Below are positions 6,531 to 54,541 of a DNA stretch of 64,000 bases, piece by piece. The stretch comes from Pseudoscleropodium purum. Taxonomy: Eukaryota; Streptophyta; Bryopsida; Hypnales; Brachytheciaceae. The notes beneath the pieces were generated by a model. That model did no database searches and was not told the DNA's origin. It saw only the letters and a program-made list of their open reading frames with translations. Position 1 is the first letter of the stretch; each line of letters starts with the position of its first letter. Location: positions 10,602,001 through 10,666,000 of the forward strand of contig OZ017803.1 of the NCBI GenBank assembly GCA_963969395.1. The letters run 5' to 3'. The position numbers and the translations under genes were made by a program.

Positions 6531-6700
6531 GGCTATTATCATGGTTGTCACATTGGACAGATTACTATTCATTTCACGTCCTATAGGACAAGTTACTATT
6601 CATCAGATGTACATCTTATGTACATCTGATGAATAGTAACTTGTCCTATAGGACGTGAAATGAATAGTAATCTATCCAATGTGACAACCATGGCTATTAT
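6531..6700. mobile_element. Foldback MITE with 9-bp target duplication
   Basis: Positions 6541-6614 and 6618-6691 are inverted copies of each other, 74 bp long with one mismatch, around a 3-bp loop (CTT). The element is flanked by the direct repeat GGCTATTAT at 6531-6539 and 6692-6700. A 9-bp duplication is the hallmark of the Mutator superfamily, so this is probably a Mutator-type MITE. The near-identity of its arms suggests recent insertion or arm homogenisation. Confidence 0.9.
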
Positions 6701-13100: not shown

Positions 13101-13800
13101 CAAGGGAAGGGGTCCATAAGTTTTATTCAAATGCTGTCCAGGATCCTCCTGTTATACACAGAGATGTGAAGCCCACCAACATCTTGCTTGATGAAAACCT
13201 TGTTGCCAAAGTGGCTGATTTTGGCATCTCCAAAGAGTCACGTCAGGTTGATACCCATGTGTCTACAAGGCCCGCTGGTACAGTAGGGTATCTAAGTCAT
13301 CACCTTACTCTATCCTGAGCCTTTCTTTCAAAATCATCTTCAAATACGAACCAATCCACTTAAGACTTCTCATGTCTCATGCTAGACTCCCCAAATGCAT
13401 TTCTTTATATGAAGTTTAATAGCATTGTGATACTTAACCCTTAAAGGATGTTGTGGTTGTTTTTTGGTTAATGAACAACAAAGAATCCTTCTATATAGGA
13501 TACAAATGCAACTATTCATTCTCAAAATTTTGTGTGACTTTCAATGAGTGCTTTTGGATATTTGTAAACCAATGATTCATACGGTATTGAAAGAGATGAT
13601 TTCGACAATCACCAATTCGTCCTTTAAGGATTAACAGTGTTGCATGTAATTCCAACATTTAGAAAGTTTATATGAAGTTGAAAACACTCCAAACTGTCCT
13701 AGTGTACCTACTTTTGACAAATAGACTTCCATTAAATCATGTCTCCCAAAGTGTCAATAAATTCCCATATTTGACTATGATTCGTTGATTGTTGATTTCT

Positions 13801-22259: not shown

Positions 22260-25200
22260 ATGATGGCGGATGATTTCGACCTCCCCGATGCTGAGGACGT
22301 GGAGGAGTCCGGAGAGGAAGTCGATTACGATCCTGCCACAGTCGGGAAGATGCAGGAGTTGATCAAGGGAGGAGGATTGCAGAAGGTTATCACCAAAGCT
22401 GGAGAGGGCTGGGAGAGTCCTGACACCGGCGATGAAGTCTCAGGTTGGTGATAGATTCTGATCCGCAGTTTTTGAAAGAATTAGCTCACTCGCGTGTTCT
22501 TGGATATGGCGTTGGATATTTCTGGTCTTTACACTGCAGATGAGCCGAGGGTACTTGGTCTTTAACACATCGTGGTTCTGTTTTTTTGCAGTGCATTACA
22601 CTGGGACTTTGCTTGATGGGACGAAGTTCGATTCCAGCCGGGACAGAGGAACGCCTTTTACGTTCAAATTGGGTCAAGGTTAGCTCGTTGCACCTTGTGG
22701 AGTTTCAACTTAACGGGTTGTGGTCCTTCCAAAGAATCATTTTCTTCCAGAGCTTCCGAGTTTTAAGATGCGATCATTTCATTTGCTGCAGGTCAAGTGA
22801 TCAAGGGATGGGATAAAGGTGTGGCAACTATGAAGAAGGGCGAGCAAGCTACGTTTACTATTGCCCCTGAAAATGCTTACGGCGAAGCTGGTTCCCCTCC
22901 CGTTATCCCGGCAAACGCGACTCTGAAATTTGACGTAGAGCTGCTCTCTTGGGCTAGTGTGAAGGATATTTGCAAGGATGGTGGTATTATCAAGAAAGTT
23001 CTTAACGAAGGCAAGAAATGGGAACACCCGAAGGACTCGGATGAAGTTCTCGGTAAGCATTGTGTTTTTTGGAACTTATTTTTTTTGGTTGTGGGTCCTC
23101 TGCAGCTGGCTTTCGTCACTTTGATTAGCACATATTCTAGAGTAACGAATGCTGCAGTCACCAACACTAATTTTATGAGAAGAAGCCGTTCTCTGTTAGG
23201 GTCTTTCTAATTTTTGATGGGTTTCGTAGGTTCAGTAACATTGAGGTGCCAAGTTCTGTACTTTGAATTATCCTGTCCTTGCGTGTGCCACCAGTTTACC
23301 GAAGTCGTACACTGTAAATTTGTGTAGGTTGAAATGTAACTGTATTGAACTAATTTCCACCAAGAAGATTGTCCCTGATAAATAGTTGCAGTCTGAACTC
23401 TCACCTTCAGGAGTTTCTTAGAATATGTTATTTTTGGATTGACGTAGAAGTGAGTGAAAGTCAGATAAAATAAGTGGTAGTTTACCCATGTTTATCATGT
23501 AATTCAATGTCATTGGGAATCGGTGTTTTAGGAAACTGGACATGAGGGCGGTTGATGGCTCAAACTGACGTTGTATAGGAAGATGGCCCTGCTGAATCTT
23601 GGCAGTTTCAGAATTTTCTTTGATTTATCTTTGATTATGGTAACTGGCAGTTAAATTTGAGGCGAAACTTCAACGTGGTCGAACGGTCGTGGCTAAATCT
23701 CCAGAAAGTGGTGTGGAATTCACTGTAAAAGATGGTAAGATCTTTCTAGGGATATTTCTTTACCCTTTGGTTATCACCTGTATCAAATGCCCGTCTCAGG
23801 TTTATTTTTAAAGACTGCAGGACGCATTCTTGACGTTAGATTTTCTAGGGGTTTAATGCAGAGTTTTCATGTTGATACCACAGGGTACTTTTGTCCTGCG
23901 CTGAAGGAGGCGGTGAAGACTATGCTGAAAGGAGAAAGAGCTTTGCTGACAGTGAAGCCTCGATGTAATTGCTAGCCCTGGCTGATATTATGAACAGCAT
24001 GTTTTGTGAAATCGCAATGTTGAATTGCATGACTGCCCTAGAATTTGAATTTTTCAGACTTGTCGTTTCACTTAAGCTTTGATAAGCTGCCTTTGAAATG
24101 TATAATCCGGGTTGTTCCAGATGGGTTTGGAAGTGCTGGCAAGGCTCCTTCTGGAGATGTGCAAGCCATTCCTGCTGAAGCTGTCCTTGAAATTGAACTT
24201 GAGCTTGTATCATGGAAAGTGGTCGAGGAGGTGACTGACGATAAGAAAGTAATGAAGAAAATCTTGTCGCCTGGAGAAGGCTACGAAAAGCCCAACGATG
24301 GATCGGTTGTGAAAGGTATACAGTGCCAATTTCTAACTCTTTACCATCAAGTTTAGGGTACTCGTGAAGTTTGATTCTATCGTCACCTTTTGCTATAGCC
24401 GTGGTAGTTCTGGTAGTGTCTTTCTGCCATTGGGAAAAGGTCACGCGTGGAGTCTGATTCGTTTATTTTCTGTGCAGTGAAATATGTGGCCAAGTTGGAG
24501 GATGGAACAATATTTGAGAAGAAGGGGCATGATGGGGAGTTGTTTCAGTTCGTCACTGATGAAGGTATGTAAAGAGTGATTGGTTTTCGTGAGTCAACAT
24601 TACACTAGCAAAGCCTAATTACTTCTTCTCTAGGTTCTCTGCTTACATATGTTTATGTGCATCTACAGGGCAAGTGATTGATGGTCTTGACAAATCTGTG
24701 CTCTCTATGAAGAAGAACGAACTTGCTCTTGTAACTATTACCCCGGAATATGGGTACAAAGCAGAGGAGATTAAGACAGACCTGGCTACAGTGCCTGCCA
24801 ATTCTACTCTCATATATGAAATTGAACTTGTTGAGTTCGTAAAGGTAAAAAGTCCCTCGCAACTTTTGCGTCTTACAATTATGACAGACGCCTAGTCAAT
24901 TAATTTGTGGACAAACCCAAGCTAGAAACACCTAATTTCAGAACTATCACCTTTTCTCTTGTCCCACAATACTGAAATTTATGATTTCCATCTAGTTATT
25001 TTTACCGATTTGTTATTGGGATATCCACATAATTGAGCTTAAGTTCAAGAAATATTAGTTATTTTCTGATTAAATATTGTTTCAAATAGACAGAATAGTA
25101 AACCTTCGTAGGGTATTTTAGCCCTTTTCATCTTTTGTATTTTTAACTTGATTTTGACACTTCTTGATTTTTATTTATTTATTTAGCAAATCTAACAATT

Positions 25201-27442: not shown

Positions 27443-29624
27443 AGGGCTCAAATAGCGTCCACCTCCTAAAATGTACACTGTTAGTTCATGGCTGAAGGTT
27501 TCTAAAAAGCAACATTTACAGTACCCACCAACAAGTTTACATTCAAATTTTGAACTCCAATTGCCAGCGAAAAAAAAGTGCAACTTTAAGAAATCATCTC
27601 CCAATTTACAACTCCAAACTTTGTGAAACTGTCACAAGTTTGTTTAAAAATAAGTTAACTACATTCTAGGTGTCATTAGTATGCAAATTTGAACCATGTG
27701 TCTAGAAAAAATCAGATTGCATTAATTGCACTCCAAGTTGTGTTTGTAGGCTTACATTGTGAAGACAACATCCATCCTTCTTGAACCAACAAACTTTAGA
27801 TTTTTGTGAATTTGAGCTTCATATATGGATCTCTAGCAACCTTTTAGCAAAAAACATACTTTGTTCAAGTAATGTGGTAGCTTAAAGATACATTGTATAA
27901 GTGTTTTTGGTGAGTAGTTGCAATTCTAATGGTTTTGTTTCTTGAGCTTGCAACTTTGCACAAATAGTAGAATTGGAAGGTTTTATTGCTTCTTTAAGAT
28001 TTTGGTGGGCATAACATCAACTAGAAGAAAAAAATTCACTCAAATTTATAAGTGCTAATACTCTAATTCTCAATTCCAATGGTCTTAAATAGCTTCATGT
28101 GATGATATGGTGCGGTTGTCATGCTATATTGATGAATTGAGATGGTATGGTAATGTCTTGATTAATTCAAATAGTATAGTCATGATATTGAGTTCAAATG
28201 TTCTTGATTGAATTCACATGCTCTTGACTTGTTCACATTAATTAGATTAGACATCTTCCTAGTTGTTAGAGTAGTACAAAAGTATATTTACTTCTAAAAG
28301 GTTTTTGAAAAAAGAGGTGTTTTGATTTTGAATTCACTAGTGTTGTTGTTGGGTTTCAGGGCTATGAAGACTAGAATATTGAAAGAAGATTATTGGGAGA
28401 TGATTGTTGGTATGTGTACTACTGACATGTCAACACCTCATATTGCAGTAGAATTAGGAATGACATAGTCTACAGTGTTTATTGTTTGGAAGAGTTTTCA
28501 AGAGCGTGGAACTATACAACCATTGAAGTCAAACGGTAGGCCTCCAAAGCTCAATATGCATGATATGAGAGTGCTTGGCGGTATTCAACAATTTGTTGCA
28601 ATTAGAGAAAAGATGTATATGAAGGTTTCCCCCACCACATTAAGGAAAGTGATGAAGAGTATCAAATTTTCTAACCAAGTTTAAGCAAAAAAGCCATTTC
28701 TTAGTCATGAGCACAAGGCAAGGAGATTGGCATTTGCCAAAAAAACACCAACATTGGGTAACATCTAATTAGAAGAATGTGATATGGATAGATGAATCTT
28801 CATTTGAAACTAGAAAAAGATCGAGGCCCGTGAAAGTATGGCAAAAGTCACATGAATGTTTTCCTTTGAATTGTTTAGCACCATCTTTCAAATCCGGTTG
28901 TTCATTAGTGATGGTTTGGGGTACATTCACCATTTTTGACAAGTGCCCACTTGTTATAATCCCACTTGATAGACGGAAAGGTAGGAACTTTATTGATGTA
29001 GTTTATGAAAGTCGCTTAAGTGGCTTCTATTTCTTCCTCAATCACCTTGAGAAATTTTTACTCATGGAAGATAGTGCCTTAATGCATTGTAGTAAGGAAT
29101 TAAGTGATTGGAGGCAAGCACATGGCATAAGAAAGCTTTTATGGCCCTCAAACTCTCTCAACTTAAACCCCATTGAAAACCTATGGAAGATTGTGAAAGA
29201 TACTATTCAAAAGGAAGAGCTACCACAAAACAAAAAAGAATTAGTTAACACCATTCAAAGGGCATCGGAAGAGGTGTCTTTAGAGATGATTGAAGTTCTC
29301 CTTGCTAGCATGCCTTACTGTATGAAGGTTGTAATCAAAGCTCATGGTGGTAGCACTAGATGGTAGATAGTTTGTCAAAAAATGCTATATTTACATATAA
29401 ATCTAAAAGTTTTTTTGTAAATGCCTAATATATTAGTAAAGTAGATTTCATTATCTCTCCAACACACTTTGCGGTTTGTGATTTGGATCATTTTTTAGCA
29501 AATGGTGGCAATTTGAAATTGGAGATATGTGCCTTGTTTTTGCAGAATGATTGTTATGAACGTAAACTTGTTGGTGGGTACTATACACGTAGTATATATT
29601 TAAGGAGGTGGATGCTTTTAGAGC
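27443..29624 (+). mobile_element. Tc1-like DNA transposon with inverted ends
   Basis: An element of about 2.2 kb surrounds the DD34E transposase relic. On the left, GGGCTCAAATAGCGTCCACC and GTACCCACCAACAAGTTTAC (27531-27540 and on) recur inverted on the right as GTAAACTTGTTGGTGGGTAC (29562-29581) and GGAGGTGGATGCTTTTAGAG (29604-29623). The outer blocks are separated from the inner ones by about 50 bp on the left and about 20 bp on the right, so the terminal repeats are long but interrupted. Exact ends and the TA target duplication could not be fixed. Confidence 0.75.
28364..29366 (+). pseudogene. Tc1/IS630-type DD34E transposase, disabled
   Basis: Starts at ATG 28364, just after gtttcag, so an upstream intron is possible. 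The first third has a helix-turn-helix of the Tc1 type (IAVELGMT, stop, STVFIVWKSFQERG, then GRPPKLN). The catalytic part is open from 28779: VIWIDESSFE (first Asp), FLLMEDSALMHCS (second Asp), LNLNPIENLWKIVK (Glu). There are 34 residues between the second Asp and the Glu. Breaks: TAG at 28466-28468, TAA at 28682-28684, a frame change in the A-rich run near 28738-28750, and TAG at 28770-28772. Plant mariner-like elements normally have a DD39D spacing, so this belongs to a different branch. It is not functional as it stands. Confidence 0.9.
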
Positions 29625-29649
29625 TTGTGTGCTTTTAGAACCTCCTACC

Positions 29650-31470
29650 CTAATAGACAAAATGAATAGAAGATGTTACAATAGGCTAAAAAATTGACTA
29701 AGATTTATTATGTATAGGGTTAGGTTTACAAAATTGCATGGGAATTTTTTTCAAAATTAGTTGTGACATTGAATTTATGAGACAAAACCAACAAAAAAAA
29801 GTATATTTATAATGGTCATCTTACTCACCTAAAGTAGTCATAGTATTAATAAACATCGTTATAATATAAAGGATTTAAAAAGTCATTTCTACAATGAATT
29901 TATATTGTAGAAATAAAGGTATCTATCATAATCACTAATCACTAATCACTCCATTATTGTTACTTCAAACATTTAAAAAAATAATAGTAGGTCATTCCCT
30001 AGATGTTCAAAACGGGTCTTTTGATCTTAATAGGTTATTCTACCATAGTGGAAAGGGCTATAGACAATTGCCTAATTTCTACAATTATGGTGCTTGGGCA
30101 TTTTTCAAAATGGACAATATCTAATATGGGCTATTGGCCTTCTTTGCCAAATTGATGTTTTTTTATTTCAAACTTGATTTTAGAGTTTAGGTAGACCAAC
30201 CCATAGCCACTATTTTCCTAATACCACTATCTTACTTTTGGCCCTATTACCACTACAAAACTCATCCAAATCCATTTACTTTTCTAATAAAATTAGCATA
30301 TTAATTCCAACTTGGTTAATGTTTTAATCTTTGATTAGTGGATATCCAAGTGTTAATAGATACACTTTAAGGTGGTTATGGGTTGTTAATATGACATCTA
30401 TGACTTTACACTATGGGTAGTTTTGTAATTTCTGGGCAAATCACTTCAAAAATTTATAGAAATTATAATTTCAACCAATAAATTATCATTTTTACTAGGA
30501 TTTGATTTGTGAAACTAGCACACACATGTGAAAAATACCCACCCCTCTAAAGTTGTCCCTAAGATATTCAAATTACTTGTCAAGGTAGTAATAGGTTGGT
30601 CTACGTTAAGGGCATTTTCAATCCACTTTACCAAATGCTTCTCCATATAAACTTCTCACTTTTTAATATTTTATACTTATTAGAATGTAAAATTCTTATC
30701 ATTAGAAGTACACCCCAAGGTACTTAGGATATGTACAATATAATATACATTTAAACATTATTCAATAAAAATAAATTTCTTCAAAGTATAAACCAAAAAT
30801 ATAAAAATGCTGGAAAATCATGGTTACTAAAGCATTTTGAACTCCAAATTTGGAGTGAAATGTGATTTGGTAATTGTAAGTCGTGAAGACTACAATTATT
30901 TTTTACTACTATACACATTTTGACCATTGTAACTTGTTCTAAATTTCCACCTTATTGTCACTAAATATTAGTGAAAATTTTTAATTTATTTTAGGAGACA
31001 TAATCACTTGTCTTCTATAAGTTATAAAAAATTTAGTTTTTTTTGTCAAAATTTGAAACTATTGGAAATTTTTGCAATAAGAGTGAAGAAAAATCATATC
31101 AAATACAATATATATTTAAATTTTTTGAAAATTTCACCCAAAAATTTTACCCCAAATTGATCTTTGCTTATGTAGAGAAATCAAGCATTTGATCTTTGCT
31201 TTGGATCTAAAAAAATTTAGCCCAAAAGCATTTTACTTATATAGAGAACTCAATAATACCTCAATGAGGTGATTTTCACCAAATTCTGGTGCAAATACGC
31301 ACATTCAAAGAACTGTCCAAAAAATATTAGATAAAAAATGTTTTTCTTCATCTTGTATTGCTCATTTGAAATCATCAATTCACTACAAAGTAACATCTTG
31401 GTTTTTGAAGAACAAATGTACATTAATTTGATGAAGTCAAGCCATAGAAAGTTGGAGGTAGTTTTGTAAT
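29650..31470. other. AT-rich intergenic DNA
   Basis: No coding or transposon end recognised in about 1.8 kb. Confidence 0.45.
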
Positions 31471-32401
31471 TTAACCCCTAAAGGATGAGCATGTATTTTT
31501 TGGCTATATAGAAATTTTGGGCAAGCTACTATGAATGAAGATTTGTATATTTGAAGATGAAATCATAATAGAAGGTGTGAACAAGGAATATTTTTCATAT
31601 GCACTAAATTTCATGACATTTGGAACTACCAAAATACGAGTCAAAAGTTATAGCCTAATATGTTATCTTTTTTGTAAATGGGAACTAGGCAAATAAAAAA
31701 AATCACTTTTTGGGAAACAAAAATTTGGAATTATTATTTTAGAAATATATACATGTGGAAAGCTTTGAATCATTTCAATTTGATCAATGAGTCAAAAGTT
31801 ATGAGGATTTTTTGTTTGTGGGTAGTTATAAAATTTTTACTCTAAAATAAATTGAAGTCTTTTATCTTACTCAATTTTCAAAAATTATGGGAAAAAATAA
31901 AATTATAAGGTGTAGATTGTTTATTACAACATTGGAACCATTGGAATTGGCATTTGCTTTATTCCATAATGAAATTCTTAACAATTTTGTTTTTTGAATC
32001 ATTCTTTAGTATGATTTACTGAATACTATTTTTTCCTACATGTTGTACAATTTCAAACGATCTTGAAATTTTGCAATCATGTAGCCAACTTGTCTCGGAA
32101 AATGAATCCAAAGAAGCACCACCATTTCGAACCTTTTTTTTTAAAGAGCTTGTAGAGTGCAGCTACCCTACTTTTTGTTGGGTAGAAAAAATGATTTTAG
32201 TGAATTTGAATGTTTATATCTTGCAATCCATGCAATGGAAATGTTTGAAATTTTTACCTCATGTTTTCAATTTAGGATACTATAAGATCCTATGGTTGAA
32301 CATGTCAAAAAAATTTCAAAAGTTTGGTAAATGTACAAAAAAATGGCAGTTTTCAAGCATTTCTTGTGAAAACCGCATAGTCATGGAATTTTAAGGGTTA
32401 A
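31471..32401 (+). mobile_element. TTAA-flanked non-autonomous element (piggyBac type), copy 1
   Basis: Begins TTAACCCCTAAAGGATGAGC at 31471 and ends TTTTAAGGGTTAA at 32401, so the body of about 923 bp lies between two TTAA tetranucleotides. The body aligns along its length with copies 2 and 3, for example CAAGGAATATTTTTCATATG and GTGGAAAGCTTTGAATCATT. No coding sequence is visible; the 107-codon frame at 32071-32394 is not conserved in the other copies. TTAA target sites with termini starting CCC are the known signature of piggyBac. Confidence 0.85.
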
Positions 32402-33801
32402 AGATTTCAATTTTAAGATAATGGTTGAAAATGGAAGGTTAAGGATTAAAAAAAAAAAAAAGTCTACATTCTTTGTGACTTATAAAAAGTGAGTGATTTT
32501 GGTTGTTAAAATAAATGAAATTATTTTCATTCATGTATGCATCACATAATCAATGAATATTGAAGTTGTAGCATTTCATTCTAGATGGTTAAGGTTAGCA
32601 TTTTATCATTGACTAATTATGTTACTTGACAAATTTTTTCAATAGAAATATTTTACAATAGAAATAGGAAAACAAAAATATGGCTAGTTTTTGCTAATCT
32701 TGACTACTAATTATGGTATTTTCATAATTTCATGTATTCTAGGGAATATTTTTTTAGCCCTTCTTTGCTCTCTGTGCTACTAGTAACATCGATTGAAGAT
32801 TAAAATTTTTAAGCATAGTTTTTTTCTTGGGAGAACATAGCAAAGGAAGTTCAACCCTCAAATGGATGTGAAAAGCCAAAAATAATGGTCCTCAAAGTAG
32901 GTTGCTTTCCTACAAAAAAAAATTATGTAGTGGAACAACAAACTTGAACAAAGCATGAAGTAAAAGCCACAATGGTTATAGAGGTGAGTTGGTCATATGC
33001 GCTAATAAAGAAAGCAATTTCCATTGGAAATGATCATTTTTAAACATTAATTTTTTTTTTCAAAAATTTGCATCTCATACAATAGTTATTTAGCAATTTT
33101 AAACAAAAAACATTCAAAAATTAATTATTGAAAAAGTCACAATAAGATTAATTAATTTCAATATCAATTTGGGCATTGAAAAAAATTTATTAGTTTTTTT
33201 GTTTTGTTGGATAGATTGATTTTTGTTTAAAAAACTTTGATTGTCTATTATAATTAAATCTATAACTTTTAAAGTCCCAAGGACCTTCTTAGAAGGCAAT
33301 TGGAGGTTTAGTTCAATTCCTATAATCTCAATTTTAGGCATACTTTATGAAACTATAAATTCTTTAAGATAGAAAAGTATATGATTTTTTTAGAAATATA
33401 ATTTTTCATTTAAACTGAAGCCCTACATAAAAAGTTTATGATACACAAAGCTCAAAATAGTCAAATTCTAGTAGCAAAAAAATCACAAAATTTCAAAATA
33501 TTTATAAAATTTTTTATTTTTGATACATTTATATTTGTTTGCATACAAATGATTGATTCATGTCATTTAGGTTAGTGTTGTGAAAATTATGAAGCATCTT
33601 GTTTGCAAGCAATCATAGCATTCTTTTAGAAAAATAACATATTGGATTCATTTTTTAACTCAATTTTCATAATTTTTAGAAAAATAAATTGTACAAGGTT
33701 TAATTTCAACTCTAAAAAATCCTCCTTTTGGATACTTAATGAACTATTTATTCTAATTCAAACCTCCTTTTGCTCAAATGAATCACTTGATTTCAATCCC
33801 C
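32402..33801. other. AT-rich spacer
   Basis: Noncoding, starting with a poly-A run at about 32446-32460. No gene or element recognised. Confidence 0.45.
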
Positions 33802-34735
33802 TTAACCCCTAAAGGACCAGACTGCATTTTTTGGTTGTATAGAATTTTTGGGCAGGTCATTGTGACCAAAATTTTTCATATTTAAGGCTGAAATTTTAAT
33901 AGAAGATGTGGACAAGGAATATCTTTCATATGCAATAAATTTCATGATATTTGGAAATAGGAGTCAAAAGTTATGGCCCAATGTGTTGTTTGTCTCTCAA
34001 CTCGGGCAGTCTGGGCAGATCTGATAAATTGACTTTTTTCAAAAATAAAAATTTGAAATTGACTTTCTATATTTATATGTGTGTGGAAAGCTTTGAATCA
34101 TTCTATTTCAATTAATGAGTCAAAAATTATGAGGAATTTTTGTTTGTGGGCAATTATGGATTTTGTACTCTAAAATGAACTTTGAAGTTGTTTATTTTAC
34201 TCAATTTTCAATATTTAAGAAATCAAATCAAATCATAGGATGTACATTGTTTATAAGAACATTGCAACCATTGAGATTGATATTTTTCAATTCCATAATT
34301 AAATTCTTAACAATTTAATATTTTGAATCATTCTCTATCTCTTTCTACTTACTATTTTTTTCCTATAAGTTGTACAATTCCAAATGACTTGAAAATTTTC
34401 AAGCATGTGAACAACTTGTTTAGAAAAACAAATCCAATGAAGCACCACCATTTTGAACATTTTTTCATAGAAAAGTGAGCTTGTAAAGTGCAGCTGCCCA
34501 GTTTTTCACAGGGTTAAGAAAAGGAGTTTTGTCTATTCAAATGCTAAAATCTTGCAATCCACATAGCAGAAAGTTTTGAATTTTTTTCTACATCTTTTCA
34601 AGTCAGTTTTCTACAAGATCCTATGATTATATATGTCAAAAAAAAGTTTTTTTCCAAAAATTTGGTACTTGTATTGAAAATGGCAGTTTTTGAGTAGTTT
34701 CAGAGAAAATAGAGTCATGGAACTTTAGGGGTTAA
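33802..34735 (+). mobile_element. TTAA-flanked non-autonomous element (piggyBac type), copy 2
   Basis: Best-preserved copy: TTAACCCCTAAAGGACCAGA at 33802 and ATGGAACTTTAGGGGTTAA ending at 34735. The inverted termini CCCCTAAAG are perfect over nine bases and sit against TTAA on both sides. It is in direct orientation to copy 1 and inverted relative to copy 3, which begins 1.16 kb downstream. Confidence 0.9.
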
Positions 34736-35897
34736 TGACATTATTTCTTGAGAAAAAATAGTTTCAATACATTGTGATTCTTTTGGTAATTGATGCTAGT
34801 GACTAAATCAGGACCATAATCAAAGACACGTATAGAATTATCCTAAACATGGAATCCAACAAAAATGAATCGAAAGTATCGAGAATGGAGCACAACAAGC
34901 AAGATGGATTGTTTAAAGGGTTTTATTAGTGCACAACACAACTCAAAAAAACTTGTCAAGATTAGTTTTATAAACCTAATAGAGTTCATCTTATGTAGAC
35001 AAAGCCCCAAGGTGACATTGAAGATAGTCACTCACCCTAGCATGGTCCTTGTAGTAATATCCAAATTAATTGATTAAGAGATCCAAATTTTTCTAGTTAG
35101 TGATTACCTAATCCCTAATAAATAAAATATTTTTATTTTTATCATTAGCAATAATAAAGTACAATATAAATAAATTATAAATAAATAAAAAATTGAATTT
35201 GAAATAGCTCTTTGATTCTTAGGGGTCAAAATTATTTTTTTATTCAAATATTTATTGCAATTGTAGATGAAGGCAAACACAATTATATAAATCAATACTT
35301 GTAATTGCACTCATTTGACTTCATTCCATGGCTTTAGTCTTGTGAAATCATGATTCCATGGCCAAGTTGTGCATTGGCTTCATTTCATGACTTTAGAGCC
35401 TTGGGTCTCATAAGTCCATAGCCAAATTTTATCTAAATGCACCTTATATTTGTCATATCCTAGTGCACCTTGTGTTCATTGATATAGGAATATATATAAC
35501 CAAATAATGGCTAAACCAATTCCATTTTAAAGGTCATCACCAAAATATTAAGGCAATGACAATTGAAAGTGATAATTAAACAATCAAACAATATAAGCAT
35601 CTATTTGCAGTACCAAATATTGCATCAATGATGAAAATTCAACCCATACTAATTCTCATTTCAAAATGTTAGCATTTTGAAAATTTCAGCCCCTCAATGC
35701 CAGAGCCTTTTGAGGGCTTTTTTGAATTGCTCTAAATTGAACAAAATACCAACATTTTGATATATTTTATCAATCTTTTTTCAATTAAAAGTGTAAAAAT
35801 TCAAACTAGGCATGTTTGAAATCACATGGGAAAAGGCAACAAAACAAATGAATATTAGTTATGGATTGAAAGATTAAAATGCTTGAACATGAGTGTG
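34736..35897. other. Spacer between inverted element copies
   Basis: AT-rich, with GGCTTTAGTCTTGTG and CATGACTTTAGAGCCTTG-like short repeats near 35320-35420. No gene is supported. Confidence 0.4.
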
Positions 35898-37117
35898 TTA
35901 ACCCCTAAAGTTCTATGACTCTGTCAAAAACTGCCATTTCCAATACAAGTACCAAATTTTTGGAAAAAAACTTTTTTTGACACATATAACCTTAGGATCT
36001 TGTAGAATATTGATTTGAAAAGATTTAGAAAAAATTTCAGAACTTTCCAATGTGTGGATTGCAAGATTTTAGCATTTGAATAAATAAAAATCCTTTTTTT
36101 TAACCTTGCATAAAAACAGGTAGTTGCACTTACAAGCTCACTTTTCTATGAAAAAATGTTCAAAATGGTAGTGCTTCATTGGATTTGTTTTTATAAACAA
36201 GTTGTTCACATGCTTGAAAATTTTCAAGTCATTTGGAATTGTACAACATATAGGAAAAAAATAGTAAGTAGAAAGATATAGAGAATGATTCAAAATATTA
36301 AATTGTTAAGAATTTAATTATGGAATTGAAAAATGTCAATCCCAATGGTTGTAATGTTCTTATAAACAATGTACATCCTATGATTTGATTTCTTTCAAAA
36401 AATATTGAAAATTGAGTGAAATAAACAACTTCAAAGTTTATTGTAGGGTACAAAATCCATAACTGCCCGCAAACTAAAATTCCTCATAATTTTTGACTCA
36501 TTGATTGAAATGGAATGATTCAAGGCTTTCCACAACATATGTAAATAAAGAAAGTCAATTTCAAATTTTTATTTTTGAAAAAAGTCAATTTTTGAGATCT
36601 GCCTGGATTGCCCGAGTTGAAAAACAAACAACATATTGGGCCATAACTTTTGGCTCCTATTTCCAAATATCATGAAATTTATTGCATATGAAAGATATTC
36701 CTTGTCCACACCTTCTATTAAAATTTCAGCCTTAAATATAAAAATCTGGTCACATTAGAAGAGTTTTGGGGGGGCTAGAAGCCTGTTTCGAGCCTGTTCC
36801 CCCGCAACTATTCTCCATAGCGAGGGGAACGGCCCGCTGTCAAAAAAAAAATTTCATAAATTTAAAAAAAAATTATATATATATATATATAGTCTCCAAA
36901 TGCAAAAAAAAAAAAATTTAATTAAAAATAAATAAAAATTGAGTTAATGATGTGGCATGGTCTCGGCCTTGTTAGACTGCTGCATCAAACCTGTTTTTTG
37001 CGTTCACAAGTTGTGATAACTCACAGGCCTCCAAAGGCCCCAAAAATCTTCTAATGCAATGACCTCCCCAAAAATTCTATACAACCAAAAAACATAGTCT
37101 AGTCCTTTAGGGGTTAA
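35898..37117 (-). mobile_element. TTAA-flanked non-autonomous element (piggyBac type), copy 3, interrupted
   Basis: Inverted copy: GTTAACCCCTAAAGTTCTATG at 35897 and, at the other end, CCTTTAGGGGTTAA reaching 37117. It matches copy 2 along its length except for an insertion of about 300 bp at 36754-37057, close to its outer end. Copies 2 and 3 form an inverted repeat with arms of about 930 bp. Confidence 0.88.
36754..37057. mobile_element. Nested insertion, small DNA transposon with CATTAGAAGA ends
   Basis: Compared with copy 2, where the uninterrupted DNA reads GGTCACAATGACC, this copy has about 300 extra bases. The ends are inverted: CATTAGAAGAGTTTTGGGG on the left and, read backwards, CATTAGAAGATTTTTGGGG on the right. 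The interior holds a G/C-rich block, an AT microsatellite at about 36875-36891 and poly-A runs. The target duplication is short (two to three bases, imperfect), so the superfamily is open. A similar end (CCCCAAAACACATCTAATG) occurs at 38936-38954. Confidence 0.75.
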
Positions 37118-39344
37118 AATTGTAAAAGTGACTAAAAGTCTTTCAATCCTTTTTTACATGTCAAATCAAAAAAATTGGCTAACAAAAAAAATGAAGGTAA
37201 AGGTCATAACATGCCTAACTCCAATCAATTTATAACTTCTCAAAATCTACTCTACAATTTTTTTAAATAAATTTTTAGTGTGATTTTTTCTTTAAGATTT
37301 AGTGCATTTGAGGCTCATTTTCAAGAGTCCTCAACATTAGAAAATTAAGATTTGCAATGGACCCCCTTGCACAAAATGTTGAATAGAAAAGTCATTATTA
37401 ATCATTCATTTTCAAAATTGGATTTTTGAGGCTAAAACTAAACTTCAAAAAGAATTTTTCAAAAATATAAAATAAAATAAATAATAATTTGGTTAGATTT
37501 TAATTAACTTAAAAGTATTGTCAATACTAGAATTTAATGCCTAATACATTTAGGGGTTAAATCTTGTGTAGGTCGAAATTATAAATATCTATCTATACGC
37601 CCACCTTTTTTTGGGCTTTGTAGTCGATTTAATTTTAGTTATTGTCATCATTCCATAGTCTAAATCCAACATTTTGGCTTTCCTAATCATTTTTTTAAAT
37701 TTCAAAGACAAATCAAAATTTCATATTCAAATTTCATATTCCTCACTTTATAAGTGAAATTTGCATAGAATTTTAATATACACACTTCATTTTCAAGGCA
37801 TTTTTGACAATACTAAAAACAATCCACCTAGTACCTTCAAATTACAATGTATTGAAAAGAGTGCAAACCATCCCTATTTGCATTAGTTGCCCCCCCCCCT
37901 CTCAAAAAATTTATAGGACATTGATTGTTTTAAAAAAAAATACTTACCCTTGAAATCACCGTTGATTTCTCAAAAAATCACAAATTGTTGATTTTGTGAG
38001 ATTTAATTTGAGCCATCCAAAAATACCAGATACAAATACAAAAATGAATACTGGATAAGGATACAATACCACATACAAATATATAGTGAATACTGGATAT
38101 TGATATGGATATGGGATGAATTGTCCCATATTGATTGTCAAATAAATTGGTTTCTAAAAATTACAAAAGAGGGAGGAGAGAGGGGTAATGAATTTTTTTT
38201 AATTTAAATTGCATATTGCCATTCAGTTTAATTTTTTTTGAGCTCATTGTAACAGTTTGTCACACAACGACAATGAGCTTAAAAGAGACAATTTACTATC
38301 TTTACAAGTATCTTTTGATTCAAATGCATATTAACATTACCCCCTTTTATATAATTGTGCACTAGTAAGTATGGTTTGTGTGATTTTTGCATATATGCAA
38401 ACCAATCCATATTACAAATAAAACAAACAAATTTGTACCTTATTATAATACTATGATAAAGAAAAAAAATAAAAAAAAATAAGTATGTACCTATCTACAA
38501 TGAAGAAAAAAAAATCTTATTATACAAAGGCTTGGGAATGTTGTATAGAAATCTTTGAAGTAAGTTGAATTGTTATACATTTAATGTTTATAAAAAATGA
38601 AGTGAACTTCTTTTTTATATTATAAGCATCATTAACTTTTAAAGGTTTAAGATTATGTTTTATAAAAAAAAAGCTTTCAAATTGCCATTTCTAGTACAAA
38701 GCATTAGATGAAATTCAAGAGGAGGGTTGTGAGTTTCCATGCCAAAATCTGTGTTTAAAAACTTAGTGCCTTACCCTATAGCAATTGTGTGACATGGCAC
38801 AACAACTGCCATGTAACCTTTTTAATTTTTTTTTTAAATTACATTTTTTTTTCAACTTTTTTTTTTTTGATAGCGGCCGTTTCTAAACTACTAGGGGAAT
38901 AATATTGGGAATAAGTGCAGACAGCCCTCCAGACACCCCAAAACACATCTAATGAAATACAATAGAAAAGACCTTTTTTTGCATATCTAACCTCAAGATC
39001 TCGTATAAGAATTGTATAAGAATTTTTGGGAAAATTTTGAAAATTTTGATTTTGTAGACTGTAAGATATTAGTATACTACTATTCAAAGTGACTCCCCTC
39101 TAAAATAATTTGAACCTTACAATCCAAGGTTTTTGGACTTTGAATCTTCATAATTCATATAATTCTGCACTAAAAACAAAGTTGTCTCAGACATTCATTT
39201 TTTGGAAAATCACGTCCAAAAAGTAGACGTCTGGACATCCTGGGTCCCTAGACATTGCGGATGCTATCTAGTCGCCATTCATCAGTTGGGCAGTTGGGTG
39301 GTTAGGTAGTTGGGCGGATGGGCAGACGGCCCCTACATGAAACA
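37118..39344. other. AT-rich intergenic DNA
   Basis: No gene. A TTTAGGGGTTAA end lies alone at 37549-37560 and may be a remnant of the TTAA element family. Around 38880-38960 there is a fragment with ends like those of the nested insertion at 36754-37057. Confidence 0.45.
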
Positions 39345-40022
39345 ACCAACTTCATTTGCGATTTTCCATTGCATTTTTTAGAATTTTGAGGCATGTAATG
39401 TACCATTTGAAAGGTGCTTTCAAGACCTTTTCAATGGTATATTACACGCCCCAAATTCCAAAAACTGCAATAGGAAATCGCAAATGAAGTTGACTGTTTT
39501 CATGTAGCGACCATTCGCCCAGCCATTTGGGTGGACGTGTAGTTGTTTTTGCAGCCAACTTCATTTGCAATTTTCCGTTGCAGTTTTTGGAATTTGGGTG
39601 TGCGTAATATATCATTTGAAAGGTGCTTTCAAGACCTTTCCAATGATATATGACACGCCCCTATAGGCCAAAAATTGAAACTGTGAATCACAAATGAAGT
39701 TGACTGCAAAACAACTACACGTCCGCCCAAATGGCTAGGCGGACGGCTTGGCAGACGATGCAAATGAAGTTGACTGCAAAAACAATTGCGTGTCTACCCA
39801 AAGGCTAGGTAGATGGGGCGGACGGGCAAACAATGGATGGGCGGACGGTGGATGCTCACTATACGAAACAACCAACTTCATTTGCAATTTTTCATTGTAA
39901 TTTTTGTAATTTGGGGGGGTATAATATATTATTGGAAAGATGCTTTTAAGACCTTTCCAATGGTATATTAGATGCCCCTAAAGTCCAGAAACTACAACAA
40001 AAAATCACAAATGAAGTTGGCT
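39345..40022. repeat. Three foldback units with GTCCGCC-type spacers
   Basis: Three palindromic units of about 150 bp lie at 39345-39494, 39554-39704 and 39869-40022. Each begins CCAACTTCATTTGC and ends with its complement GCAAATGAAGTTG or a close variant, with a central GAAAGGTGCTTTCAAGACC and GGTATAT. A half fragment lies at 39757-39775. Spacers and flanks carry repeated GGGCGGACG, GTCCGCCCAAATGGCT and inverted forms. This looks like a cluster of one foldback element or a short satellite of hairpins. Confidence 0.75.
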
Positions 40023-42605: not shown

Positions 42606-43168
42606 TTTCTAAAATTAAAACATCAGAAAACAATTCTTAAATTTTTGGGAACATATAATTTTAAGTGCTTTTTTCCAAAAGCATTTGTGTTTCCAACATC
42701 ATTTCAAATGCACCAAAATCAAAGGGTCTTTCAAGGAGATTTGCCATTTTTTTTGCATATTGCTCTAATACTTGTCATTCATTTTGGGATACTTTGGAAG
42801 TAGAAAAAATTAAACATTAAAATGAAAAACATTGCCTATGTTTAGAATTTAAAAATATTGTATTTTTTGAAGATCAAATATAGTCATATAGAAGAATTTT
42901 CTAAATAGGAGATCTTAATAAAGAACAAAATTTGAAGAAAATTTGATGTTTTGATTAGAAAGACAATTGGAAAAAATATAAAAATCACAAAAATCACATA
43001 TTTCATTTATAAGAGTCTATGGAGATGGTCATTTACCAAAAGAACTAACAAAATAAAATTCTCTATGTTTCAAATGTGTATAAAACAAAGCTTGCATTGT
43101 ACACTTTTCTAGAAAGTGGATTTAATGTTTTTTTTAAATTCACCGATATATGTAGAACTTGCCTTAGT
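42606..43168. other. AT-rich spacer
   Basis: Nothing supported; a 79-codon open frame overlaps the MITE end and has no coding support. Confidence 0.4.
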
Positions 43169-46100
43169 GCATCTTCTTTTATTGTATAACTATCAATTAT
43201 GTAATTAGTAGGTGGGTTCAATTTGAAGTACATTTCCATAAAGGTACAATAACTTTAAGCTTTAAGTTAAGAGAGTTGATTCTGGACCCCATGTGTAATA
43301 GGGATCTATCCGGATATCCTACATAGGGTGGAAAAGAAATTGGTGGCTTCTATATAATGACCCGTTTTTCAAACTATACAGACAAGTACCAAACTATTAT
43401 AGTGGTCTTTATTGAAATAAGTGTCTTCCTTACTAGCTTGCATGTTTGGATGTGGTAGCTTTGCAATTAATTTCTTCATGTGTTCCTAATATTTTTGCCA
43501 ACAGATGAATCTTCATCCTAAGTGGCCCAATTTTAAGTAAATTGTCCTACAATAATATTCCAAATTTAAAATAAAAAAATACTGTAATATACTTAAAAGT
43601 AAATGAGATCTCTTTAAATACATAAACCTCTCTTAGTGCATAGTCATGACACTATGGATTAAGACAAGTTCTATCTAATTATACAATACTTTGTTGTCTA
43701 TTAGAAGACCATCTTCTCCAAATTGGTATCCTACATTAGAAAAAAATAGGGCTTCAAGAGGGCTATTTGATTATAGACCCACAATGCAAATAGAGGAAAT
43801 TAAAAAATATCTAAAAAATACAAAATAGGGAAAAAAAGAAAATTTGCCATATCCGTTAAAGTGATGTATTAGATTGAGATTGTTAATTATTTTATAATAA
43901 TTTAAATATACATATATGTATAATTTCTTTTATTGCCTATTTTAGTGCACTTGTACTATTGGCTAGAATCCAATGATCCTCTTGAGGTTCTATTTTATTC
44001 TAATAAAAATTCCTTAAAAATAGATCACCTAATCATAAAACTCTGAAAGCAACCAACTCTTAAAATTAGCAATCTCTAAAAGAATAATTTTAGAGTTAAA
44101 AAAAGATAAAATTCTAAAATATCCATATTTAGATAAAAACATATTCTTTCAATACATAGTTTTTTTTTTGTTAAATGAGAATTTTCAACATCTAGTGAAT
44201 ATTAGAGTGAGCCCTAAGAGTGCTTACTAAAGTTCTTCAACTCAATCAATCTACATATTTTATACCTTCTTTATTGAGTTGGAAGATTATTCAAGATGAA
44301 TACAAGGCCTATTCTATTGCTTAAGCTCTTCTTTTTATTCACTTGACATCATCGACTCCCCATATAATATAGTAGATGTGACTCCATGTAATGTAATTTA
44401 ACTATAAAGAGCCTTCTTGTATAAATTACATTATGAGGAGATACATAGGATGTAATAAAAAGCTTTATGTAGACTAGTCATAATGTGAAGGGCCTTCCAT
44501 TTGGTCTATAACTAGAATACATATGATATTCATGACTTCAATAAAGTTCTAGGAATATCTATAAACCACCAAATCAAAATCCAAGTCGTTTTTTAGTTAG
44601 TGCATAGTAGTAGGCTAGAGATAATTCTTCCATTCCTTCAACTAAGGATAAATACCCAAATTGCCTTGAGTTCTATTTTGTACTACTTTAATTTCTATAT
44701 CTAATTTGGGACCTTCAATTTCAAATATAAATTAAAAATTTCCAAATTTTATAATGGGGTGGGGTGATTGCAAGAAACACTTGTCCTTTTTGGGTGTCCC
44801 CTCGGTCTCCATGGAGGTGTTTTTCCCTCATAACTTTTGTGGTTTAAGTCCATTTTAGCTAAAATTTGGAGGAAAGATGTGTATTGTAGATCTAGACATT
44901 CAATAATTTTTTCAATTTCTTAAAAAATAATTTACTATTTTTAAAGTGGCCCCAATTGGGTGTCTACCTTGGTTGTTTTAGGGGGTTCTCAATCCTATTT
45001 GGGGACTAAAAATGCAATTCTGAAGCCAAGATTTCAACCTGCTGTAGGTGGGTTAACATTCTAAAGATGTCTGATGAGATTTTTGGCAAAGAACCTAATG
45101 TAAGGGTTGTACATGGGTTGAAAGTGGACATTGTTTATGCAAGCACTATGAAGAAGGGGAAATTTTGTATGATGAATTTTTATTCACATGGGACCAAAAA
45201 TAAAATTAGAAAAACATATTTTTTTCTTTAAATTAAATTTATTTATTTTTTAATTACTGAAAATGACCAAATGAAACTACTTGTTTTCACCTATTTTCTA
45301 GTCCAAACACCTAATGGAGTCCTCCAAAGTGGTGACTACTACTTCTTAGTAGTCAATAATTTGTAGTACATTTTAAATTTGTCAAGACCAGTGTCAGAAA
45401 TGATATTCACTCCCATTCGCCTAGTCAGTTAGTCAGTTAGTCAGAATGTTAGTCAATCAGTTGGTTTAGGTTCACCCAATTAGGAAATTGCCTAGTACTT
45501 GTAGGATTGGGAGTACTGGTTGTACAATGCTAAAAAACAACCATTTTGAGCCAAATTTGTTAAGTGTTTCTTGCAATCACTTGGTGGAAAATAAAAAATT
45601 CTAATGTTTTTCTCTAGGGGTGAAATGCAAGGGGAATAAGGAGGTCAATTTATCTTGACCATGGTCATAACATTGTTTACTAATGAGGGAAGGGTCCTTT
45701 TTTCGCCCTTAACAAGGGGACTCCTACAATACACAAAATTGTCTTATATTGCTACTTAGCCAACCCCAATCCTCATTTAAAAAAAAATGAGGGACTCTAT
45801 AAGACCATTTGATTTTGGACCAATAATCAAATGGCCTTCTAGAGGCCCCAAATTTTCTCTAATGTGAATTAATTTGAAAGTCTCTCTCACACATTTCAAG
45901 AGGCATAATACCTTCTCAATATGGGAGGATCATTGTTTGGTTAAATACAATGCTATGGGTGATCCAAGTAGTTTGCTCTTACTGAAGTACTCTGATACTC
46001 TAAAAGTAATCATGACACATAGGTACATTTTTTCTTTCTTCAATGTATTAAGAGTATATTTGAAGAGGTGGTTGAGCTTATAGTGACCTCTATGTTTCAA

Positions 46101-49468: not shown

Positions 49469-51375
49469 GCAATTTTCGAGTCTTGTCCTACAAGCTTTGG
49501 AGGTGAGATTTTTTGGTCATCGTTTTGTAATCCAAGAGGTTTCATGAATTTCTCTAACACCGCAATAATATTTTGAAAACTTTTAACCCCTAAACATCCA
49601 TATCCTTCTCCAAAATTAATGATTTGGAAAAAATCATTATAAAGTAATATTTGGAAGAATATTTTGGAATTGATATACAAATAAAAGTTGTAGATTCCAT
49701 CACAGATTCCATCCATATAGCTAGATTCACTAGTGCTATCACCAATATTTTTTTTTTATAAATTTTGAAAGGAAAATTTCAAAATTCCTTCTAATTCAAT
49801 TCCAAGCAAAATATTATCATTTTTTCAGTAAAACTTGTTGGAATGGATTTGAAATGAAGTTTTCTTGATATGGTGATTTTTTGAAATTTTTTTGTTCTTT
49901 AAATATATGATCTCATTTTTGCAAGTCTAGATTTAAACTAAAGTCAATGCATTTTTTGATTTGACACTCTTCCACATTTGTAATTTAAAAAAAATACAAA
50001 CTTTAGTAACACCAAATCTAACCATTACATAGGACAACAATTTGATAAAGTATCTCCACAAATTACATGAATTTCATCCAAAATAAAATAAAATTTTGAT
50101 TTTCAATCTATTCATCATCCAAAAATTGGACTTCAAAGGGCTTCAAGGTTAAAGTTGATTGAAAGCATAGGGAAATAGGGAATGGTTATACGTGCTATGT
50201 ACTAGGCTTTCATTGAATGGTCAACATTGAAGCAAAAATTGTTTCAACTACCATTGGTTGCTCTTGGAAAATTGTTAGTGGTGGATTTGAGTTTGTGGTG
50301 ATTGTAAATGGTCATTTGATTAACCTTTAAAGGACAATTGTCTATTGAACGGACAATTGAAAATTCAAATAATTTCCTATAAAATAAACTTTGGTAAGAT
50401 ATTTATGAAATTTTGATATAAAGTGTGAACATGTATCAATGTATTGTATATGAAGGTTTGATTATTAAAATTGAGTTTCCACACCATATTTTTGGAGAGC
50501 CTTGTCACCTCACGCTATTCACAAAATGACATTTGGTACTTTTTTACAAAAATGACTTCATCTTTGTTGAATGTGTCCTTCAAGTAGAGTACCTCTTTAA
50601 TAGTTAATAGGAGTATAATTCTTTTTAAGAAACCGGGTGTTTGAAACAAAAATTATCAACTACCTTGAACTTTGAAGGTAACTCAAACAATTGAGACATT
50701 GTTGAAGCATCTTTTGCTAAAATGTAATCAGAACCCTCATTGACTTTTGAAATTTGGCATATATGTGACTAATAAAATATGGCATACAATTTTTTCCCAA
50801 AAAAATTTTAGTTTTTAAATCACATTTTAAGAAGAATCAAACTTTGTTAGCTATATAAAGGTGGTTTCAAGAAAAATTACTTTCTTATGACTTCAAGCCT
50901 TATTATCTTGCAATTTGAAGTCAAAGTTCTAAAATTTTCTCAATCTCACATATTCTAAATTTTTATCTCTAAATTTTCAATTTTCACTCTTTGTTTTTTA
51001 AATAAAAAATTTCATTGCACAAGAAATCATGAAAAAATGACTAGTATATTGCTAATTCAATACACCTCCTTACATTGAAGGATGATGTAGAATAAGCTAA
51101 ACTCCATATTTGCTTTTGAAATTTTTCATAAGTGAAATTATGAATGGTAAAAATCTTCATTTTTGTATCAAAAACAAAAATTTTATTCCAAAAAGGCTCG
51201 AATTCAAGGCTCCTAACCCCATTTTGCATAAATTAATCTTTTTTTTTTTTATCACTTGATCTTTTTTTAATCACTTCAATCACAAGTTATAATATTTCAA
51301 TCTATTTGGTCAAATGGACTGAAATTTTTTCCATACAAACTTAGAATGATAGAAGAAAGAACAAGATAGAATTTA
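49469..51375. other. AT-rich intergenic DNA
   Basis: No gene. Single TTAACCCCTAAA and TTAACCTTTAAAGGACA words at 49582 and 50323; the second is followed by DNA faintly like the body of the TTAA elements (GATATAAAGTGTGAACATG), so a much older copy may lie here. Confidence 0.45.
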
Positions 51376-52472
51376 GTATTAGTTAATAGGTGGGTCCAAT
51401 TTGAAGTACATTTCCATGAAGGTACAATAACTTTAAGCTTTAAGTTAAGGGAATTGATTTTGGACTCCATCATAATAGAGATCTCCTTGGATATCCTACA
51501 CAGGGTAGAAAAGAAACTAGTGGCTTCTATGAAATACCTATGTTTTAAGCTATAAAGACAAGTAGTGCATTTTCGTTTATGTATAACATGTCAACTATGT
51601 AATTAGTAGGTGGGTTCAATTTGAAGTACATTTCCTTAAAGGTACAATAACTTTAAACTTTATGTTAAGGGAATTGATTTTGGCCCCCATGCATAATAGA
51701 AATCTACATGGATATCCTTCACAGGGTAGAAAAAAAATTGGTGGCTTCTTTGAAATCCCCTTTTTTCAAGCAATAAAGACAAGTATTGCATCTTCTCTTA
51801 GTATATAATATAACTGTCAATTATGTAATTAGTAGGACAGTAGGTGGGTCCAATTTGAAGTATATTTCTATAAAGGTGCAATAACTTTAAGCCTTAAGTT
51901 AAGGGAATTGATTTTAAACCCCATGCATAAAAGAGATCTACTGAAATATCCTACACAAAGTGGAAAAGAAATTGGCGGCTTTTGTGCAATAGTGCAATAT
52001 CTATTTTTCAAGCAATAAAGACAAGTAGTACATTATTATTTATTGTATAATTGTCAATTATGTAAACAATAGTTAAGTCCAATTTGAAGTGCATTTATTT
52101 CCATAAAGGTACAATAACTTTAAGCCTTAAGTTAAGGGAGATGATTTTAGCTCCCATGCATAATAGAGATCTATCTAGATATCCTATACACGACAGAAAA
52201 GAAAGTGGCATCTTTTGTGCAATATTTGTTTTTCAAGCTATAAAGACAAGTAGTGCATCTTTTTTCATTGTATAATTGTCAATTATATAGTTAGTGGGTG
52301 GATCCAATTTGAAGTACATTTCTATAAAGGTACAACAACTTCAAGCCTTAAGTTAAGGGAATTGATTTTGGACCCCATGCATAACAGGGATCTACTTGGA
52401 TATTCTATACAAGGTGGAAAGAAACAAGTTGCTTCTCTAATATACCCATTTTTCAAGCTATAAAGACAAGTA
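51376..52472 (+). repeat. Five tandem units of about 225 bp
   Basis: Each unit has GTGGGTCCAATTTGAAGTAC or a variant (at about 51391, 51610, 51843, 52072 and 52296), then AAGGTACAATAACTTTAAGC, TTAAGTTAAGGGAATTGATT, GGATATCCTACACAGGGT and AAAGACAAGTA. Spacing is 219-233 bp. Copy A has a single unit at 43213, so the array arose after or during duplication. Confidence 0.85.
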
Positions 52473-54541
52473 CCAAACTATTATAGTGGTCCCTACTAAA
52501 ACAAATGTCTTCCTCTCTAGCTTACATATTTGGATGTGGTAGCTTTGCAATTAATTTCTTCATATGCTCCCAATATTTTTGCCAACAAACTTCATCCTAT
52601 ATGGGCCCAATTTCAAATAAATTGTCCTACAATAATATTCCAAAATTTAAAATAAAAACTCCAATATACTTGAAAATAAATGAGACCTCTTTAAATATAT
52701 AAACCTCTCCTAGTGCATAATCCTAACACTATACGTTAAGAAAAGTTCTACCTTTACAATATTTTGTTGTTTATTAGAAGACTATCTTTTCCAAATTGGT
52801 ATCCTACATTAGGAAAAATAGAGCCTCAAGACGGCTATTTGACTATGGATCTACAATGCAAATAGAGAAAATTAAAAAAAATATTTAAAAAAAATAAATA
52901 AATAAATTTTGCTACATCACTTAAAGTGATGTATTAGATTTAGATTGTTAATTATTTTCTAGTATTTTAAATATACATATATGTATAATTTTTTTATTGC
53001 CTATTTTATTATATTTTTTCTATTGGCTAGAATCAAATGACCTTCTTGAGGCCCCATTTTATTCTTTTAAAAATTCCTTAAAATGAGATTCCCTAATTGT
53101 GAAATTCTAAAAGAAACCCACTTCAAAAATTAGAAATCTTCCAAAATTAATTTTAGAATAGAAAAAAAGGTAAAATTCTAAAATGGCTATATTTAGATTA
53201 AAAAAATATTCTTTCAATACTTAGGCTTTTCCTACTTAAATGAAAATTCTCAATAATTACTAATTAGTGAATGTAAAAGTGAATCCTAAGAGTGCTTATT
53301 ATATTTTTTCAACTCAATTACTCTACATAATTCCTACCTTCTTCATTGAGTTGGAGGAATACTCAAGATGAATACAAGGCCTCTTCTATTGGTTGAACTC
53401 TTCTTCTTATTTACTTAACATCATTGACTTCCCATATAATATAGTAGATTTGACTCCATGTATTGTAGTTTAACTATAAAGAACCTTCTGTATAAATTAC
53501 ATTATGTAGAGATACATAGGATGTAATAAAAGGCTTTGTATAGACTAGTCATAATATAAAAAGCCTTCCGTTTGGTCTATAACTTAATAACTAGAATACA
53601 TATGATATTTATAACTTCAATAAAGTGCTAGGAATATTTGTGAACCGTTAAAATCAAAATGCAAGAGGATTTTTAGTTGGTGCATAGTAGTAAGCTAAAG
53701 AAGATCCTCCCATTTCTCCAACTAGGGATAAATGTCAAAATTACCTTCTATTTTGTGCTACTTTAATTTCTCTATTTTTCAACTCAATTACTCTATATAA
53801 TCCCTACCTTCCTACCTTCTATTTTTTGGGGCCTTTGATTCCAAATATGAATTAAAAATTTCCAAATTTTATAATGGGGTGGCAAATAAAAAATTCCAAT
53901 GTTTTTTTTAGGGAAAAAATTCAAGGGGAACGAGGGGGTTTCATCTTTACCATGGTGATAACATTGTTTATCAATGACGCAAGGGTCTTTTTTCCATCCT
54001 TAACAAAAGGACTCCTACAATATATAAAACTATCTTATATTGTTCCTTAGCCAACCCCAATCTTTACTAAAAGAAATTGGAAGACTCTACAAGACCATTT
54101 GACTTTGGACCAACAATCAAATAGCCTTCTAGAGACCCCAAATTTTCTCTAATGTGAATTAATTTGGAAGTCTCTCCCACACATTTTGAGAGGCATAATA
54201 CCTTTTTAATATGGAGAGGATCCTAGCCTAGATATTCAATGTTATTGGTGATCCAAGCAGTTTGCTTTTACTAAAGTGTTGTGATATTCTAAAAGCAATC
54301 ATGACACATATATAATTTTTTCTTTCTTCAATGTATTAAGAGTCTAAATTTGAAGAGGTGGTTGCTTATAATGACCATTATGTTTTAACTTCAAAAATTT
54401 ATAACTAATTCCACAAAGATCCAAAATTTATGAAACTATTTGGGTTAAGTAGCTTTTGGTAGCGGAAGTTAGACTTCAAGATTACTTAATCCACTTATCC
54501 ACTTATCCACCTCTCCCTAGTTCTTTTGAAATTACTCATTA
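51376..54541 (+). repeat. Long direct repeat, copy B, with tandem expansion
   Basis: Copy B of the repeat at 43169-46258. It begins with five tandem units (51376-52472) and continues colinearly from about 52470 to 54541. It lacks the 817-bp insertion of copy A. At about 53690-53960 it holds a degraded copy of the GGCTAGGG MITE, with a small internal duplication of TTTTTCAACTCAATTACTCTA-type DNA. Confidence 0.8.

Follow-up and report, generated by a model that had tools for sequence, protein, structure and literature searches.

Elements of the piggyBac superfamily are widespread in animals, fungi and protists and occur occasionally in plants, red algae for example (2025, PMC12732532). The element from T. 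ni is 2,472 bp long, and many animal piggyBac elements have CCC as their first three bases (PMC10813416). For plants, a 2025 census of miniature inverted-repeat transposable elements (MITEs) in 207 genomes, covering five superfamilies, mentions neither piggyBac nor TTAA in its main text (PMC12550479), and the same holds for the main text of a 2025 review of plant MITEs (PMC12595863). The subject here is a group of three related repeats in a 64,000-nt stretch (the window) of a land-plant genome of 313 Mb in 52 contigs, together with their relatives elsewhere in that genome. The repeats have piggyBac-like ends, lie at TTAA targets with a 4-bp duplication, and are homologous at both ends to longer piggyBac elements; they are very probably non-autonomous, MITE-like piggyBac transposons.

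A repeat family with shared ends at TTAA

Three related sequences in the window are bracketed by TTAACCCCTAAAG and CTTTAGGGGTTAA ends, five of them exact and one decayed; a separate element sits inside the third.

31471-32401, plus strand: copy 1, 931 bp, of an older subfamily, matching the family profile over positions 2-932
33802-34735, plus strand: copy 2, 934 bp, both 13-base ends exact
35898-37117, minus strand: copy 3, 1,220 bp including an insertion, both 13-base ends exact
about 36755-37056, no strand: candidate element of about 300 bp inside copy 3, with inverted ends ATTAGAAGAkTTTTGGGG, separate from the piggyBac element

TTAACCCCTAAAG, as such or as its complement, occurs without mismatch at 31471 (+), 33802 (+), 34723 (-), 35898 (+) and 37105 (-); the right end of copy 1 (32389-32401) has two mismatches to the 13-base end. 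If up to two mismatches are allowed, that end occurs 13 times in the window; 100 shuffles average 2.85 and never exceed 6. The terminal inverted repeats themselves are 9 bp, CCCCTAAAG, present on both ends and beginning CCC. Copies 2 and 3 are 90.1% identical over 877 bp; copy 1 is 75.2% identical to copy 2 over 952 bp and 76.4% identical to copy 3 over 838 bp. A preliminary description of this DNA had reported three copies of roughly 930 bp with common ends; the copies and their ends are real, and the length is right for copies 1 and 2, whereas copy 3, on the minus strand, reaches 1,220 bp because a separate element of about 300 bp was inserted in it. Comparison with copy 2 suggests that this insert may have made a very short duplication (TG, or ATTG/AATG).

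The longest stop-to-stop frame in the window copies, among frames of at least 90 aa, has 123 aa and no Pfam match. DNA folding of copy 2 is ordinary (z -1.73, with 1 of 20 shuffles equally good), and an Rfam scan of window positions 28000-40000 gave no family at its threshold.

With copy 2 as query, the genome yielded, besides copy 2 itself, 39 near-full-length relatives at 88-91% identity, 40 of 9,586 candidates having been scored. Exact TTAACCCCTAAAG ends number 7,845 genome-wide (3,972 and 3,873 by strand), against 14 for the same end read backward. Of the 88 ends in an alignment of 44 copies, 37 are exact (20 and 17), and a rough extrapolation gives 9,000 copies or 2-3% of the genome, a figure made uncertain by a sample that leans to copies like copy 2 and by a tip common to other clades. 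The first 100 ends in the genome list include 13 neighbouring convergent pairs less than 6 kb apart; nine of these span 864-1,020 bp, a uniformity expected of amplification from one progenitor, and the other four span 573, 2,830, 3,988 and 5,176 bp. The 2,830-bp pair (C1:4322858-4325687), considered as a parent element, is actually two adjacent miniatures. The family of about 930 bp is short, non-coding, high in copy number and uniform in length, as MITEs are, and is longer than most plant MITEs.

TTAA borders the 39 other copies on the left in 34 cases, on the right in 31 and on both sides in 27; as these copies were retrieved by their match to copy 2, the sample of ends is not entirely independent. 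Independent of any whole-copy alignment is the finding that 2,100 of 2,634 exact CCCCTAAAGGACC 5' ends in the genome are immediately preceded by TTAA. Outside TTAA no base is conserved in the 39 copies, and longer duplications were not seen among them: a 4-base extension matches in one of 39 on the left and in none of 39 on the right. The preliminary description had read the TTAA sites and CCC tips as signatures of piggyBac, and had named borders running past TTAA, or duplications of another length, as evidence to the contrary. Its reading has gained from the border counts and from the transposase domain that parent elements enclose (below), and in the copies examined the contrary evidence did not appear; its call for TTAA to be tested at every border was followed for the 39 copies above.

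Longer elements with the same ends

The transposase domain PF13843 (DDE_Tnp_1_7) has at least 117 matches in the genome (116 of 512 candidates scored; best E-value 2e-66) and none in 14 control genomes. In the PDB, the protein of locus L015 (428 residues, one stop read as X) matches piggyBat (9c0f, E 9e-15) and piggyBac (6x67, E 4e-11); in public genome and metagenome sets it has 142 matches at E up to 0.001, the best at 70% identity, and all 120 of these that were listed carry PF13843. The stretches IDEMMI, VTDN and GVDVAD, which we take to be the surroundings of the catalytic aspartates, are readable in L013. A cysteine-rich stretch after the DDE region was seen by eye in some copies; no Pfam model for such a domain matched P0001 or P0039. 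All 30 of the best PF13843 matches (L009-L038) contain stop codons, so that the piggyBac family looks dead, and the only stop-free matches among the 117 listed are two short fragments. Stops in the best 30 loci are TAG 92, TGA 38 and TAA 27, raw counts taken without a background codon count; the excess of TAG would perhaps fit decay of CAG through plant CHG methylation.

Transposase loci, extended by their flanks, were searched with a profile built from the 44 miniature copies. Both miniature ends enclose piggyBac-type transposase sequence in four elements of 2.6-5.6 kb, all decayed.

C46:19635641-19639447: L078, 3,807 bp, exact 13-base ends
C48:14479609-14485181: L102, 5,573 bp, both ends
C40:30686667-30689236: L101, 2,570 bp, with decayed tips and an apparent internal deletion
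C1: L015x, about 5.6 kb, both ends

The 5' matches of the four cover profile positions 1-256 (E 3e-13 to 4e-20) and the 3' matches 544-845 (E 5e-9 to 1e-12); that is, the first 216-256 bp of the miniature and a stretch within its last 390 bp or so are homologous to the two ends of the longer elements. Five further loci of the same clade (L013, L017, L019, L033 and L038) retain the 3' end (E 1e-46 to 1e-6), and in all nine loci of the L078 clade examined it lies downstream on the transposase strand. None of 11 loci of other clades, the transposase relic in the window included, matches the miniature profile at E up to 0.1, nor does any of 100 Markov-shuffled parents at E up to 0.01. A weak 3' match at L010, outside the clade (E 0.013), was not counted. 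In three clade loci examined with only 1.5 kb upstream, the 5' end was not found. The 13-base terminus (up to two mismatches), sought up to 1.5 kb away from each of the 30 best PF13843 loci, was exact at L031 only, with a doubtful two-mismatch site at L013; this search was nearly empty because most ends lie further out, where longer flanks revealed them. Scanning the surroundings of the same 30 loci for any TTAA combined with inverted repeats gave noise only.

The window has a piggyBac transposase sequence of its own.

2-1014, minus strand: piggyBac transposase relic, frameshifted, with stops, continuing past the left window edge

This relic is 65% identical to P0039 over 463-1014 (E 2e-72); its closest relatives, P0039 and P0116, match it at 52-65% and 55-73%, and the remaining matches listed at 30-42%. 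It belongs to a piggyBac clade other than the one that matches the miniatures. Its flanks show no match to the miniature profile (E up to 0.1). TTAACCCCTAAATATCC, 1.7 kb beyond the left edge of the window, is a candidate for its 3' tip; the relic has the tip core of the miniatures in common with them, not their subterminal sequence. Elements uniting the miniature's ends with a transposase, as the preliminary description had foreseen, are thus present in decayed form (L078, L101, L102 and L015x). The relic it had noted 30 kb away is likewise a genuine piggyBac relic, of a different clade, and so drops out as the demonstrated partner of the miniatures.

The alternative that survives best takes the miniatures to be piggyBac elements moved by several clades sharing the tip CCCCTAAA, that of the window relic included, and not by the L078 clade alone. 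A TTTAGGGGTTAA-like tip (up to two mismatches in 13) does occur downstream at three of the 11 other-clade loci, namely L027, L029 and the relic in the window; the subterminal match, however, is confined to the L078 clade (9 of 9 loci vs 0 of 11), and we consider this alternative unlikely. The best-supported reading of the sequences is that the family consists of cut-and-paste passengers, now probably dead, which piggyBac transposases of the L078 clade would have moved in trans. Transposases of that clade, when intact, would have bound the shared ends in trans; the miniature would have been cut out and pasted into new TTAA sites; one progenitor would have been amplified to thousands of copies; the transposase sources would then have decayed, leaving a family that is probably inactive now.

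Several points weigh against this explanation. Mobilization in trans is deduced from sequence. Of six clade loci with at least 3.1 kb upstream, four have the 5' end and two (L013x and L019x) are without it. Copy 2 positions 240-545, in the middle of the miniature, are unmatched in the four parents (best E 0.37), so that simple internal deletion of these four cannot be the whole story. The outermost 3' tip of L015x was not located, and some 250 bp past the 3' end of L078x lies an extra, unexplained 3'-type match (profile 714-930, E 1e-9). Finally, the close homology between parents and miniatures is all old (about 70-80% identity); no direct progenitor was therefore found.

Target-site duplication and other superfamilies

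The flanks of 46 insertions were joined with one 4-bp copy and compared with the window and loci L001-L089. Empty-site matches spanning the junction were found for eight insertions; for seven (L047, L049, L052, L062, L072, L074 and window copy 3) at least one match is gap-free within 10 bp of the junction, in line with the single target copy that the preliminary description had anticipated, and for L046 the sole match has one gap nearby. Three of the four L062 matches contain gaps. The miniature L072 lies within another one; of its 53 comparisons 52 are gap-free, many of them repeating the same loci and hence non-independent. For copy 3, paralogous empty sites with a single TTAA occur in L047, gap-free, and in L006, with one nearby gap. 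Such paralogous sites reflect the state before insertion, not excision. The target letters are TTAA for L047 and copy 3; in other empty sites they have drifted (TCAA, TAAA, TTGG, AAGA, GCAA and others), and these sites therefore bear on the length of the duplication more than on its letters.

At C1:3081018-3081039, and again in the left flank of L077, two copies adjoin back to back and share a single TTAA; a third candidate, C48:6572888-6572891, was dropped, as its second piece begins inside an element. The miniature that lies within L033x is flanked by CTAG left and right; its flanks, joined with one CTAG, align there with L038x and L019x without gaps. This supports what would be a 4-bp duplication at a non-canonical site.

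These duplications bear on two superfamilies with plant miniatures. A Tourist-like PIF/Harbinger element with a 3-bp TAA/TTA duplication could be misread as TTAA, since TAA lies within it, and such miniatures are common in plants (PMC12595863). The gap-free 4-bp fit in seven of eight empty-site cases, the clean one-CTAG join and PF13843 between the ends all speak against that identification, and neither the empty sites nor the CTAG copy showed the 3-bp TWA duplication of this superfamily; it is very improbable.

The second is suggested by a neighbour.

28773-29363, plus strand: Tc1/mariner-like transposase relic (DDE_3; PF13358, E 2e-11), 2.1 kb from copy 1

In Physcomitrium patens, Mariner-like elements are reported to be close to fungal ones (PMC7466625). 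Relatives of the window's DDE_3 relic might have moved a Tc1/mariner miniature, and a TA duplication made by an element starting in A gives identical letters at a TTAA site. On that account the outer T and A would vary freely, yet it is the whole TTAA that precedes most exact ends, and CTAG is duplicated whole in one copy; the border unit is TTAA, not the TA of Stowaway, and the parents are piggyBac. We give this origin as little credence as the PIF/Harbinger one. Least probable of all is a Sola3 element, a superfamily that has the same target and also duplicates TTAA, as the parents with matching ends contain PF13843 and resemble piggyBat in PDB comparisons.

The host, the rest of the window and known systems

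That the host is a plant, as first proposed, is borne out: FKBP-exon, kinase-exon and NAC-domain matches place it among land plants. The FKBP exon (22767-23207) scores 232 bits with wheat FKBP, against 99 for the best FKBP5 match. The kinase exon (11349-11645) has 19 PDB matches, one generically named and 18 with what we take to be plant names (FERONIA, BAK1, BRI1, CERK1, SYMRK and the like). The NAC domain is plant-specific; it gave 29 exon matches at about 15 loci in the window's genome and no signal in 14 control genomes. So small a number of NAC loci, together with the Tc1 relic, might as a guess point to a moss or some other seedless plant.

Other repeats occur in the window. A candidate element of about 200 bp (13434-13634), TTAACCCTTAAAG...CTTTAAGGATTAA, is possibly another TTAA miniature family. 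Single tips with no identified partner, TTAACCCCTAAAT at 37548-37560 (-) and TTAACCCCTAAAC at 49583-49595 (+), could be ends of related piggyBac clades. There is also an 83% direct repeat (43165-44700 and 52251-53775, 9 kb apart), with an array of units of about 220 bp (51380-52472) beside its second copy, and a 97% palindrome at 6540-6692.

This genome, in which piggyBac-domain matches number at least 117 and matching ends run into the thousands, indicates that the superfamily can thrive in a land plant. On balance we lean towards a broader view, that piggyBac is a major, long-resident superfamily here, of which several diverged clades with similar tips drove waves of miniatures now amounting to a few percent of the genome; the picture of piggyBac as marginal in plants would then fail. 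Against novelty, a 2023 review counts PiggyBac among seven angiosperm MITE superfamilies (PMC10004981), a 2024 review includes it among the DNA transposon superfamilies of plants (PMC10794571), and in a table for a fern genome PiggyBac has 1,230 entries at 0.00% of the genome (PMC6890710). Among the open-licence papers that literature searches brought up, no title or opening part of an abstract tied miniatures of plants to a piggyBac transposase resident in plants. The classification of plant MITEs should make room for TTAA elements, and the arrival of piggyBac in plants, whether horizontal or ancient, becomes testable across plant genomes.

The elements described here share with T. ni piggyBac and bat piggyBat the TTAA target, the CCC tips, a PF13843 transposase and a sequence match to 9c0f and 6x67; they differ in their land-plant host and in parents that are 2.6-5.6 kb long and decayed. 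Animal piggyBac-type MITEs (in insects and corals) are likewise short and non-coding, with TTAA borders and piggyBac ends, and differ in host kingdom; a study of coral MITEs uses the word piggyBac 57 times (PMC2872659). The Tourist (PIF/Harbinger) and Stowaway (Tc1/mariner) MITEs of plants are, like this family, non-autonomous, high in copy number and moved in trans (PMC12595863); their targets are TWA or TA and their transposases are others, whereas here the target is TTAA with a 4-bp duplication. This is a known type of transposon in an unusual host, piggyBac being known mainly from animals.

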